This document shows positions 26,571-29,204 of a stretch of DNA of 64,000 bases, piece after piece (the stretch's first letter is position 1; each line of letters opens with the position of its first letter). The stretch comes from Streptomyces violaceusniger Tu 4113 (GTDB taxonomy: Bacteria > Actinomycetota > Actinomycetes > Streptomycetales > Streptomycetaceae). The stretch covers positions 10,230,001-10,294,000 of the forward strand of contig NC_015957.1 of the NCBI RefSeq assembly GCF_000147815.2. Direction: 5' to 3'. Below the pieces are notes generated by a model. The model searched no databases. It saw only the letters and a program-made list of their open reading frames with translations, and was not told the DNA's origin. Made by a program: the position numbers and the translations under genes.

Positions 26571-27755
26571 TCACCGCAGCGCGTCCTCGATCAGCTCGGC
26601 GGCCCGCCCGGTGCCGCCCTCGGCCCGCACCTCGTCCCGCAGCCGCGCCGAGACGCGCGCGACCTCCGGATCCGTGGTGAGTTCGAGCAGCGCGGCACGC
26701 AGCACCTCGGCGCTGGCATCCGCCGTGTCGATACGGCGGGCCACGCCCAGCTCCACCAGCCGGTCGGCGTTCATCGGCTGCTCGGCACTCTGCGGTACGG
26801 CGATCATCGGCAGCCCGCAGTACAGCCCTTCGCCGCTGCTGCCCATCCCGGCATGGGTCACGAAGGCGTCGGCCTGTTCCAGGATCGCCAGTTGCGGCAC
26901 CCAGCGGTGCACCTCGATGTTGCCCGGGACCTCCCCCAGCTCGGCCGGGTCGACGTACTTCCCGATCTGCAACACCACATGCCACCCGGGCAGCTCCCCG
27001 AAGGCCGCGACGCACTCCCGGTAGAAGCCGGGCTGCCGGGTGAAGGCCGAGCCCAGCGAGACCAGCAGCACCTTCTCCGCCCCGGCGGGCCGTTCCCACC
27101 GGCCCTGCCCGGCCCGGTCCCCGAGGCACGGCCCGACGAACGTCACCACCTCCTCGTCCACTCGGTCCGCGTTCGGCTGCATGGCCCGGGGGATCACCGC
27201 GACGGCCCGCTCGGGCCGCCCGCTGAAAACATCGGGGTCGAGCGTGGTCGCCCCGCAACCGGCCAGCCACGACGCGAACTTCTCCTGATACGCATCGGCC
27301 CCCGGCAGCGCCTTGAGCGCCGCCGCGACCTCCTCCGCGTAGCCCTCCCAGGCCACGAAGGACGGCGACAGCTGAACCGTCGGCCGCCCCTGCGCCTCGG
27401 CCAGGGCACGCCCGGCGTAGCCGCCGATGTCGTAGAGATAGAGGTCGGCCGGATCGTCGTCATACGCGGCGCGCAACTGCGGCAGCGCCTGGATCGCGTC
27501 GTCCAGGAAGACGGTGCCGGCGGCGATGGGGTCCTCGGGCCAGCTGTTGTCCGCGACGGGCAGCGTGGACCGGTACGGCACCAACGCGGCACCGGTGGGC
27601 TCGATGACGTCCGCGACGAAGGGATCGTTGGCGTAGGTCACCCGGTGACCGCGCGCCACGAGCTCGCGGATGACCTCGAGGCTGGGCAGTACATGGCTGA
27701 TGGCGGGAATGCCGACCATCGCGATATGGGCACGACGACGGGACGGACGTGACAT
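26571..27755 (-). CDS. Macrolide-type UDP-glycosyltransferase (MGT/OleD family)
   Basis: A 394-residue GT1 enzyme. The N-terminal acceptor domain opens RRAHIAMVGIPAISHVLPSL with EVIRELVARGHRVTY. The C-terminal donor domain has LLVSLGSAFTRQPGFYREC, VHRWVPQLAILEQADAFVTH and the signature HAGMGSSGEGLYCGLP with PQSAEQPMNADRL. OleD and the S. lividans Mgt, which this resembles, inactivate macrolides by glucosylating the desosamine 2'-OH. HG is replaced by PAIS in the usual AxHGHVNPSLEV segment, with the catalytic His kept in SHVLP. Upstream lie a 9-codon leader ORF and arms complementary to the region just before this start, suggesting drug-induced expression. Confidence 0.9.
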   Translation of the reverse strand: MSRPSRRRAHIAMVGIPAISHVLPSLEVIRELVARGHRVTYANDPFVADVIEPTGAALVPYRSTLPVADNSWPEDPIAAGTVFLDDAIQALPQLRAAYDDDPADLYLYDIGGYAGRALAEAQGRPTVQLSPSFVAWEGYAEEVAAALKALPGADAYQEKFASWLAGCGATTLDPDVFSGRPERAVAVIPRAMQPNADRVDEEVVTFVGPCLGDRAGQGRWERPAGAEKVLLVSLGSAFTRQPGFYRECVAAFGELPGWHVVLQIGKYVDPAELGEVPGNIEVHRWVPQLAILEQADAFVTHAGMGSSGEGLYCGLPMIAVPQSAEQPMNADRLVELGVARRIDTADASAEVLRAALLELTTDPEVARVSARLRDEVRAEGGTGRAAELIEDALR

Positions 27756-27764
27756 GAGAGATCA

Positions 27765-27871
27765 CTCGTTTCAGATCTACGGCGAGATGGACACGACGAT
27801 CCAGCGCACCGGGCGTGGTCACCGGTGCGCCGGAGAGAGCGGCGTGTCAGCCGTAGATCTGCAGAAACGAG
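27765..27871 (-). promoter_or_regulatory. Putative attenuator: leader complementary to glycosyltransferase start region
   Basis: In the minus-strand transcript, 27871-27850 lies inside the leader ORF. It is complementary over 19 nt, apart from a 3-nt bulge, to 27783-27765, ending 9 nt before the glycosyltransferase ATG. Between these arms a separate hairpin has 9-bp perfect arms GCGCACCGG (27804-27812) and CCGGTGCGC (27822-27830). The four-segment layout matches erm-type translational attenuators: a ribosome stalled on the leader would free the start region. The AACGAG just upstream of the start, the best available Shine-Dalgarno, sits in the sequestered arm. Confidence 0.6.
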
Positions 27872-27876
27872 TCCAT
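27847..27876 (-). CDS. Leader peptide candidate MDSFLQIYG
   Basis: An ATG-to-TGA reading frame of nine codons (M-D-S-F-L-Q-I-Y-G), about 90 nt upstream of the glycosyltransferase. Its codons 3-9 form one arm of the long-range pairing described for 27765-27871. TACCGT, a -10-like hexamer, ends 7 nt before the ATG, so the transcript may begin at the leader itself. There is no strong Shine-Dalgarno. Too short for coding statistics: the case rests on position, frame and RNA complementarity. Confidence 0.55.
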   Translation of the reverse strand: MDSFLQIYG

Positions 27877-28025
27877 GCGGATGACGGTACCCCGGCCGCC
27901 ACCCGGCCCGCCTCCCCTTTTTCCGGCCTCAGCAAGCGCTAAGTGCCCGCTCAGTGCCCGATCGTAGGGTCGCGCAGGCGACGGGCCGTCTGTTCTCCCT
28001 CCCTCTCCGACGGGCCGTCGCCCCC

Positions 28026-28343
28026 TTACGCCCCGCCCCCGTGGATGCGATCGAACGCACCGGCCTTGGCACCACGTATGAAGGCGCGCAGGGCGGCGGA
28101 GGTGGTGGTCAGGATGACGTCGGGGTCGTCGCTCTCCCTGAGCAGGACGGCGCGCTCGCTCGCGGCGACGTCCACGCAGTTGCCCGCGTCCGCGCTGTAA
28201 GTGGACTTCCGCCAGTCAGCGGCGACGTTCACGCAGTTGCCCGCGTCCCCGCTGTAAGAGGACTTCCTCCACTCGACCCCGACGTTGACGCAGTTGGACG
28301 AGTCTCCGCTGTACGAAGGCTTCCGCCACTGGTACGTGGACAC
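28026..28343 (-). CDS. DUF397 protein with triplicated WRKSSYSG motif
   Basis: A 105-residue protein. DUF397 proteins usually have one WRKSSYS...GNCVEVA unit followed by a short strand-rich half. Here the N-terminal unit is present three times in tandem (WRKPSYSGDSSNCVNV, WRKSSYSGDAGNCVNV, WRKSTYSADAGNCVDV) before a single C-terminal half (VLLRESDDPDVILTTT, FIRGAKAG). It is encoded 9 bp downstream of the Scr1-type regulator. DUF397/Scr1 pairs in Streptomyces behave like antitoxin-type or developmental regulator pairs. The triplication could alter stoichiometry with the regulator. Confidence 0.9.
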   Translation of the reverse strand: MSTYQWRKPSYSGDSSNCVNVGVEWRKSSYSGDAGNCVNVAADWRKSTYSADAGNCVDVAASERAVLLRESDDPDVILTTTSAALRAFIRGAKAGAFDRIHGGGA

Positions 28344-28352
28344 GCTTCTCCT

Positions 28353-29204
28353 TCACATAGTGCGCAAGATGCCGTGGATGAAGTCCCGCGACTCTCGCGG
28401 CTTGAGGGCGGTCATCTCCATCCGTTCCAAGACAGCCCGATACTTGGCCAACTCGGCCTCTGCATCCATGAACTGGGTTCCTTGGGCAGAGTCGAGCTGC
28501 ACCGTGTCGAGCTGCGGTACAGGCCCCACGACATAGTCGAACGATTGCCCGGTCCCAGGGAAGGTTCCGCCGCCGAACGGAATCACCAGGATGGTGACGT
28601 TGTCCATCTCGCTCATGGCGAGGAGGTGTTCAAGCTGGGCGCGGACCGTCTCCATTCCGCCGAATTCCATCCGCAGAGCGGCCTCATGGATGACCGCGGT
28701 GTACGGCACCGGCTTGTCGCCGTAGAGGATCGCCTGGCGCTTCATCCGGTGCGATAGTCGATGCTCCACCTCATATGCCCGCAACGGCGGAGCTACTTCC
28801 CGGATCACCGCGCGGGCGTGGTCCACGGTCTGGAGCAGGCCCGGGATGTGGATGACCAGAGCGACGCGCAGCGCTCGGGCCCGATGCTCCAACTCGGCCA
28901 TATCCGCGAAGCTGGCCGGGAGGTGTTCCCGGTATTCGTCCCACCAGCCCCGCGCACGTCCGCCCGTCATGTCCGCCAGCGCATCCACGAGGTCCTCATC
29001 GGCGCACGTGTAGGTGCGAGCCATCACGCGCACACGATCGGCACCCACGGCGTACCGGCCCGCCTCGATCATGCTCACGCGGGCCTGCTGGACACCCAAC
29101 TCGGCGGCGGCCGCAGTGGAGGTCAGACCCGCGCGCTCACGAAGCTTCCGCAACTCGGCTCCGAGCCGTCGCTGCTTGAGCGTAGGACTACTGGTGGTCG
29201 CCAT
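28353..29204 (-). CDS. Scr1-family HTH regulator
   Basis: A 283-residue protein. Residues about 12-68 form a Cro/C1 HTH (LGAELRKLRERAGLTSTAAA, VQQARVSMIEAGRYAVG). The remainder is the DUF5753/Scr1 domain (YREHLPASFADMAELEHRA, HIPGLLQTVDHARAVIRE, ILVIPFGGGTFPGTGQSF). It pairs with the DUF397 gene immediately downstream and is divergent from an ATPase-domain gene with a 126-bp gap between starts. This three-gene module is one of the most repeated paralogous sets in Streptomyces. It is sometimes annotated as toxin-antitoxin-like; S. coelicolor Scr1/Scr2 stimulate antibiotic production when overexpressed. Confidence 0.93.
   Translation of the reverse strand: MATTSSPTLKQRRLGAELRKLRERAGLTSTAAAAELGVQQARVSMIEAGRYAVGADRVRVMARTYTCADEDLVDALADMTGGRARGWWDEYREHLPASFADMAELEHRARALRVALVIHIPGLLQTVDHARAVIREVAPPLRAYEVEHRLSHRMKRQAILYGDKPVPYTAVIHEAALRMEFGGMETVRAQLEHLLAMSEMDNVTILVIPFGGGTFPGTGQSFDYVVGPVPQLDTVQLDSAQGTQFMDAEAELAKYRAVLERMEMTALKPRESRDFIHGILRTM

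Follow-up and report, generated by a model that had tools for sequence, protein, structure and literature searches.

A predicted leaderless leader peptide with a conserved end at its stop codon before glycosyltransferase and DUF6243 genes of Actinomycetes

Attenuators of the erm type, among them those with the leader peptides ErmCL and ErmBL, alternate between an arrangement in which the RNA segments 1:2 and 3:4 are paired (OFF) and one in which 2:3 are paired (ON). With the locus from Streptomyces violaceusniger Tu 4113 described here (NC_015957.1; the stretch of 64,000 nt that was analyzed is called the window and all coordinates are window positions) they share a leader peptide encoded upstream and base pairing of the RNA close to where a macrolide-type resistance gene starts. 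They differ from it in that the rearrangement from 1:2/3:4 to 2:3 was not found here, that the peptide motif is another one and is anchored at the stop codon, that there is no room for a Shine-Dalgarno sequence before the leader and that the downstream gene encodes a glycosyltransferase of the MGT family instead of a 23S rRNA methyltransferase.

A second relative is MsrDL (MYLIFM followed by a stop codon), the leader of streptococcal msrD, for which erythromycin-dependent arrest at the stop codon has been proven, with Leu3 and Ile4 being essential (PMC10314930). Both leaders are very short and end with isoleucine, an aromatic residue, one further residue and the stop, and it is a macrolide resistance gene that follows MsrDL (PMC10314930). 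However, MsrDL has its own ribosome-binding site, whereas the glycosyltransferase leader is predicted to be leaderless, and MsrDL acts on an intrinsic terminator that precedes an ABC-F gene, whereas none was found at 27700-28030 of the window. Furthermore, the glycosyltransferase leaders are longer (7-10 aa), end with G, E or Q before any of the three stop codons, and the leaders studied here are predicted to pair around the ribosome-binding site of the gene that follows, which encodes a glycosyltransferase or a DUF6243 protein. Since neither an erm-type switch nor an MsrDL-type terminator was found, the leader is set apart from both known types.

Short upstream open reading frames are also present in Streptomyces itself, before ARE ABC-F genes (lmrC; are5scL1, MLV; tiaAL, MVGDDDISG) and before wblC, and these are antibiotic-induced (PMC12421871, PMC8546547, PMC7157823). 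Their peptide sequences are unlike those of the glycosyltransferase leaders. The frames are5scL1 and tiaAL act by stalling at the start codon with lincosamide, streptogramin A or pleuromutilin drugs (PMC12421871), and lmrC uses a terminator. The open-access literature, outside of which most subscription journals lie, yielded no report of such a leader for a macrolide glycosyltransferase and none on DUF6243.

The leader and the layout of the locus

The features of the locus are the following:

27847..27876, minus strand: leader open reading frame MDSFLQIYG-stop, ATG to TGA, with a conserved C-terminal QIYG-stop (sequence and homologues)
27884..27889, minus strand: -10 box TACCGT, its end 7 nt before the leader ATG (from the -10 spacing in the family)
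27917..27923, minus strand: AT-rich GAAAAAG upstream of the -35 region, resembling the WblC element GAAAWY
27850..27872, minus strand: segment 1, the leader codons that pair with segment 4, consisting of ACTCGTTT and CAGATCTACGGC with CTG bulged
27764..27783, minus strand: segment 4, GCCGTAGATCTGAAACGAGT, complementary to the leader
27760..27767, minus strand: Shine-Dalgarno-like GAGTGATC of the glycosyltransferase gene, partly within segment 4 (sequence)
27843..27848, minus strand: 5' arm GACACG of helix 2, beginning in the leader stop codon (predicted fold)
27790..27795, minus strand: 3' arm CGTGTC of helix 2, a helix of 6 bp (predicted fold)
27804..27830, minus strand: inner hairpin (segments 2:3) with 9-bp arms, GCGCACCGG at 27830-27822 and CCGGTGCGC at 27812-27804
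26571..27755, minus strand: OleD-like MGT-family glycosyltransferase of 394 aa (profile search and alignment)

The nine-codon frame MDSFLQIYG, which a preliminary description made from the sequence had placed before the glycosyltransferase gene, is present at 27876-27847 of the minus strand (ATG GAC TCG TTT CTG CAG ATC TAC GGC TGA, 30 nt), and codons 2-9 are those complementary to segment 4. The complementarity with its 3-nt bulge is there as well but comprises 20 bp instead of the 19 given before: leader nucleotides 27872-27865 and 27861-27850 match 27764-27783 over 8 and 12 bp with CTG bulged out. It ends close to the glycosyltransferase ATG (27755), as had been stated, at a distance of 8 and not 9 nt. 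While the inner hairpin with its 9-bp arms was likewise recovered, the proposed four-segment layout of the erm type was not supported. In the predicted fold of the 124 nt from leader ATG to glycosyltransferase ATG (MFE -65.5 kcal/mol) 2:3 is already paired inside 1:4, and an alternative ON fold was not found. A leaderless start, a motif anchored at the stop codon, a WblC-type promoter and a second gene family had no place in the preliminary description.

No Rfam match at E of at most 1 was obtained for 27600-28100, and no terminator-like site was detected on either strand of 27700-28030 in the window. The upstream neighbors on the minus strand encode a protein of 105 aa that contains three repeats of the WRKxxYS type and has no NCBIfam match (28026-28343) and a Sco1979-like regulator scoring 191 bits, below cut-off (28353-29204); neither has an evident link to the leader.

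Conservation of the leader, its promoter and its pairing

The upstream regions of glycosyltransferase relatives came from the genus (295 genomes searched by DNA, 392 by protein), from GTDB species contigs (80 loci), from the class (345 genomes) and from two more families (150 and 35 genomes). A first set of 191 loci with a match gave 162 regions once identical ones had been merged and those with less than 80 nt upstream left out, and 70 of these 162 distinct regions contain a short open reading frame ending with [QE][ILF]Y(G) before the stop. The wider set comprises 213 upstream regions, with some genomes counted twice, and 101 of them carry a leader of the form M-x(2-5)-Q[IL]Y[G/E]-stop. These represent 99 distinct leaders, 86 distinct DNA sequences and 74 distinct peptides and occur before related glycosyltransferases in three family-level groups of Actinomycetes (f1, f17 and f18).

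The leaders vary in length by whole codons (7 aa in 8, 8 aa in 52, 9 aa in 37 and 10 aa in 2 of the 99), and as in MsrDL the conserved residues, here Q[IL]Y[G/E], stand directly before the stop. Counted back from the stop codon in the 86 distinct leaders, codon -1 is GGC in 77, GAG in 6, CAG in 2 and TAC in 1, codon -2 is TAC in 84, codon -3 is ATC in 66 and CTC in 15, and codon -4 is CAG in 78. Further from the stop, at -5 to -7, the codons are diverse; the N-terminus is variable and the C-terminus fixed to the stop. Glycine at -1 is always encoded by GGC (77/77) and leucine at -3 nearly always by CTC (15/16), a uniformity which suggests a constraint on the RNA in addition to that on the peptide. 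The stop itself is TGA in 87, TAG in 10 and TAA in 2 of the 99 leaders, so that no single release factor is addressed.

The preliminary description had made conservation of the leader frame one of its touchstones, and the frame is indeed kept. When leaders were defined by DNA alone (CAGMTCTACGG in the collected regions, n=83), 82 showed TANNNT, a spacing of 6-7 nt and then ATG or GTG, and this start is in frame in 82/82. The exception is a Nocardiopsis locus (L099:2682-2716), where a -10-like box and the QIYG codons are kept with start codon and stop not in place; by its sequence it is a decayed leader. A scan of the genus with CAGMTCTACGGCTGA returned 60 places in 58 of 392 genomes as compared with 3 in the backward control, and 55 of the 60 lie at most 450 nt upstream of a glycosyltransferase gene. 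The other five were rejected as leaders, four being ends of long open frames and the fifth (L240) resembling two of these four, with stops in that frame. MAGIQIGG-stop was discarded too, since all three loci that were read have it as the last part of a long frame.

All 70 leaders of the first set are preceded by TANNNT ending 6 nt (26) or 7 nt (44) before the leader start, and among the 95 distinct promoters of the wider set the spacing is 6 nt in 36 and 7 nt in 59. Most transcription starts are reported to lie 7 or 8 bp downstream of the -10 box (PMC7157823). By the distance of the -10 box, the start of the mRNA is predicted at the A of the leader AUG, not downstream of 27847 where it would have spoken against the preliminary proposal, and the mRNA is thus probably leaderless. 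Promoters dependent on WblC consist of GAAAWY, 3 bp, TKGMNN, 16-19 bp and TANNNT (PMC7157823). A WblC/WhiB7-type pattern with at most 2 mismatches in 10 was present in 54 of the 95 promoters versus 0.5% of shuffled promoters, and 76 of the 95 have an AT-only tetranucleotide whose first base lies at -33 to -29 relative to the -10 box. The promoter in the window is weaker, its best placement (AAAAAG) having 3/10 mismatches in element and -35 together. As judged from these patterns, the leader promoters resemble the WblC/WhiB7 type of antibiotic stress.

The pairing of the leader with the region of the downstream start was assessed by tests that all, including the permutations, count related sequences as independent. 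Finding arms by consensus misassigned them in several divergent sequences and MFE folding was used instead. In these folds the last leader codons pair downstream (at least 8 of 12 nt) in 69/70 regions as compared with 194/700 dinucleotide-shuffled downstream stretches, and they do so within 50 nt of the estimated glycosyltransferase start in 63/70 regions as against 66/700 shuffles. Tests relative to assigned starts were confined to 49 regions with a consensus-matching arm and a gap of 10-22 nt to the start. Here, at least 10 nt of the stretch from -28 to -9 are predicted to pair with the leader in 49/49 cases versus 126/980 shuffled leaders, which bears out the arm-pairing conservation expected in the preliminary description, and at least 6 nt of -16 to -1 in 41/49 versus 283/980. 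Arms permuted between 99 regions never paired as well as the own arms (0/2000 permutations), and for 17 divergent regions 206/5000 permutations were as good, kinship being ignored in both comparisons.

A segment 4 core CCGTAGAnCTG recurs in many leader-bearing homologues. Its strict form CCGYAGNNCTG lies near the start in 42/70 leader regions versus 2/92 regions without leader, the two being L086, where it is inside the coding tail of a Vat-like gene, and L191, where the upstream sequence is masked; 28 of the 70 first-set leader regions do not have the strict pattern. Shifts of whole helices lend some support to the pairing at the level of sequence: the arm GGATCTG in L275 (MFFQILLYG) matches a displaced CAGATCC, GATCTG in L278 (MSFQILIYG) a displaced CAGATC, and CCGTAGACAG in L259 matches CTG-A-TCTACGG. 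Covariation in both arms, a further check named in the preliminary description, is weak. Compensatory base changes are scarce in an alignment of 50 sequences because the leader side is almost invariant. Changes in arm 4 lead to uncompensated A.C mismatches at one pair in 10/50 rows, one arm position is mismatched in most rows, and RNAalifold gave no useful consensus fold for this alignment. It had been built from the 53/70 leader regions whose arm scores at least 9/11 to the consensus, leaving out L150, L037 and L173 (two long inserts and one doubtful arm). Several divergent leaders (L180, L254, L281, L286) have weak arms. When the leader was masked in ensemble folding, arm 4 opened in 49/49 regions, and the window from Shine-Dalgarno sequence to start in only 29/49, its mean unpaired fraction rising from 0.47 to 0.50.

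The genes behind the leader

The glycosyltransferase is like OleD and Mgt in that it falls into the MGT family (TIGR01426, 384 bits with a cut-off of 260) and is identical to OleD (2iyf) in 229 of 384 aligned residues. It differs from them in scoring 524.5 bits and thus below the cut-off of 700 for NF033129 (Mgt, macrolide-inactivating) and in its active site. The histidine in the OleD sequence AAHGHV, which we take to be the catalytic base and to form the catalytic dyad with an aspartate, is replaced by isoleucine, PAISH standing where OleD has AAHGH. The same position is occupied by Val in 47, Ile in 22, Thr in 1 and Pro in 1 of 71 leader-bearing glycosyltransferases, mostly within PA[VI]SH, and by His in none, while the partner aspartate is kept in 71/71; among glycosyltransferases without leader, 55/85 have the histidine. 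Substrate or chemistry of the leader-bearing enzymes may, as judged from these residues, differ from that of OleD. Since the histidine is missing from them, naming a macrolide goes beyond the enzyme family itself and the drug class is uncertain.

On a FastTree tree of 156 glycosyltransferases the distribution of the leader needs 9 changes as compared with about 51 in shuffles. Twelve leader-less relatives were examined, of which eight lie directly behind the coding tail of a Vat-like gene and three behind an ABC-F gene. A Vat-like acetyltransferase or a TlrC/CarA/OleB-like ABC-F gene adjoins the leader-less glycosyltransferase gene upstream in L079, L080, L093, L089, L091, L092, L095 and L097. 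The Vat-like gene that was scanned matched NF000311 (Vat) best with 245 bits, below the cut-off of 300, and the scanned ABC-F gene matched NF000171 (TlrC/CarA/OleB/SrmB) best with 643 bits, below the cut-off of 800. Such neighbors fit a role in resistance. In the 12 loci, a stretch of 320 nt ahead of the gene that lies before the glycosyltransferase gene, taken as the putative operon start, contained no candidate for a leaderless short open reading frame, with the start of the frame in L085 being doubtful.

Many of the more distant OleD-like loci (L102-L148) carry a palindrome like ACGAGACGTMTCGTCTCG at the promoter, before the glycosyltransferase start. This is probably a repressor site and would mean a different control of the OleD-like genes. 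One enzyme family is wired either by the leader or otherwise. The second glycosyltransferase homologue of the genome (53% identity) has no such leader in the stretch read. Nine further relatives, in which CCGTAGACCTCTA precedes the start (L195-L198, L200, L202, L205, L207 and L208), contain neither TCTACGG nor TCTACAG in about 490 nt upstream, except for L200 at -445; these nine share a conserved block GCGTT...CGGCGTTT...GTAGACCTCTA...CAAGG-like before the start.

A second gene family emerged from a two-mismatch scan of 295 genomes, in which, among the matches listed, MNLFQIYE-stop and MTLFQIYE-stop precede a gene that does not encode a glycosyltransferase. It encodes a DUF6243 protein (PF19756, 92.3 bits, cut-off 25), unrelated to the glycosyltransferases. 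DUF6243 was matched in 51/91 genomes and had no match in the genome of the window. Among the best 30 matches, 27 have a leaderless open reading frame ending with YE or DE, and three (L359, L363 and L365) are without leader, the start codon of the leader having been lost in L365. Addition of L335 brings the count to 28/31 loci, which include both L335, chosen because its leader was known, and the discovery locus L336. MSSFFQIYE is the commonest of these leaders (10); 26/28 end with [QP]IYE and two with QIDE or PVDE. Their -10 box is spaced by 6 nt in 10 and by 7 nt in 18 cases, and 24/28 have a WblC-type promoter with at most 2 mismatches. At least 6 nt of -16 to -1, and thus the ribosome-binding site directly, are predicted to pair with the leader in 26/28 loci versus 114/560 shuffled leaders; when only the four final codons of the leader were considered, pairing close to the start was less pronounced, with 17/28 versus 78/560 shuffles. 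A shared peptide ending combined with different arms and an unrelated gene is our strongest argument that it is the end of the peptide that matters. DUF6243 is accordingly regarded, on the strength of these sequence comparisons, as a candidate antibiotic-response protein.

A proposed mechanism and the alternatives to it

Frame, C-terminal motif, promoter distance and complementarity are conserved by comparison of the leader regions; translation of the leader, arrest and its position, the drug and the translational read-out are what we infer. We consider it reasonably probable that the leader is part of an attenuator on a leaderless upstream open reading frame, in which drug-dependent arrest at the leader end, on a transcript from a WblC-type promoter, would free the glycosyltransferase start. 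The WblC/WhiB7-type promoter, belonging to the general response to ribosome-targeting antibiotics, would start the mRNA at the leader AUG. When the drug is absent, ribosomes would complete MDSFLQIYG and depart, and the leader codons would re-pair with the sequence just before and over the glycosyltransferase Shine-Dalgarno sequence, so that the start would be closed. A tunnel-binding drug, most likely a macrolide, would halt the ribosome at the leader end, most likely at the stop codon, and the last two residues, Tyr-Gly (or Tyr-Glu), would then lie close to the peptidyl-transferase center. Arrest at the stop codon is suggested by the fixation of the motif to the stop together with the precedent of MsrDL. 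A chain of 7-10 residues has about the length at which nascent peptides meet a macrolide. Since a ribosome stalled there would shield the leader as well as about 12 nt that follow it, helices 1 and 2 could not form, the leader would stay single-stranded and the glycosyltransferase start would be freed.

The best surviving alternative, which we nevertheless regard as unlikely, is that what the leader senses is not a drug in the tunnel but slow decoding or termination at Gln-Ile-Tyr-Gly/Glu-stop upon shortage of an amino acid or a release factor, or that it responds to another class of ribosome-targeting antibiotics. An active site unlike that of OleD, the lack of a known drug link for DUF6243 and the similarity of one scanned gene upstream of a leader-less glycosyltransferase to Vat streptogramin A acetyltransferases (closest match, below cut-off) are in line with it. 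On the other hand, the leaders contain no runs of a single codon and use three stop codons, and the WblC-type promoters together with the glycosyltransferase family point to ribosome-targeting antibiotics. As to other drug classes, lincosamide, streptogramin A and pleuromutilin drugs stall two Streptomyces upstream open reading frames at the start codon (PMC12421871), and stalling at that place would presumably not need a conserved C-terminus.

Somewhat less probable still is a transcriptional read-out, where the stalled ribosome would block a terminator or a Rho-dependent stop before the glycosyltransferase gene in the manner of lmrC and msrD. Known antibiotic-responsive upstream frames of Streptomyces and streptococci work in this way (PMC8546547, PMC12421871, PMC10314930), and a strong GC-rich hairpin does lie between leader and glycosyltransferase gene. 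However, the search of both strands of 27700-28030 in the window, to which Rho-dependent stops are invisible, returned no terminator-like site, and it is the ribosome-binding site region itself to which the leader codons are complementary, also in the DUF6243 set. An inverted repeat that serves as an operator on the DNA, or as a hairpin merely stabilizing the mRNA, next to a short frame without significance appears very improbable. The complementarity does rank with the best conserved DNA features there, but the first set shows distances between 78 and 230 nt from leader stop to estimated first glycosyltransferase residue, the frame is kept in 82/82 cases with an N-terminal part that changes codon by codon, and the [QP]IYE ending recurs with different arms before an unrelated gene.

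Release of the downstream start by an arrested ribosome is the explanation we retain, and our best reading of the sequences is a new family of leaderless, probably drug-responsive peptides that would arrest at or near the stop codon. Its generalization is more tentative, and we hold it with slightly less than even confidence: a general leaderless class with the ending [QP][IL]Y[G/E]-stop would exist in Actinomycetes, in which 70S ribosomes load directly at the 5'-terminal AUG of transcripts from WblC-type promoters, sense the drug after at least seven residues and freeze at termination, and in which the leader codons lock the ribosome-binding site of any gene that follows, at least those of an MGT subclade with an altered active site and of DUF6243.

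If this is true, it would be the first control by a leader peptide described for a glycosyltransferase resistance gene within the literature searched. Arrest peptides that act at the stop codon and have no ribosome-binding site for the leader would extend the known sensing range of drug-bound ribosomes. DUF6243 would be a new antibiotic-response protein, which points to a first function for this family, and the motif supplies a compact DNA marker with which to look for drug-responsive genes of Actinomycetes.
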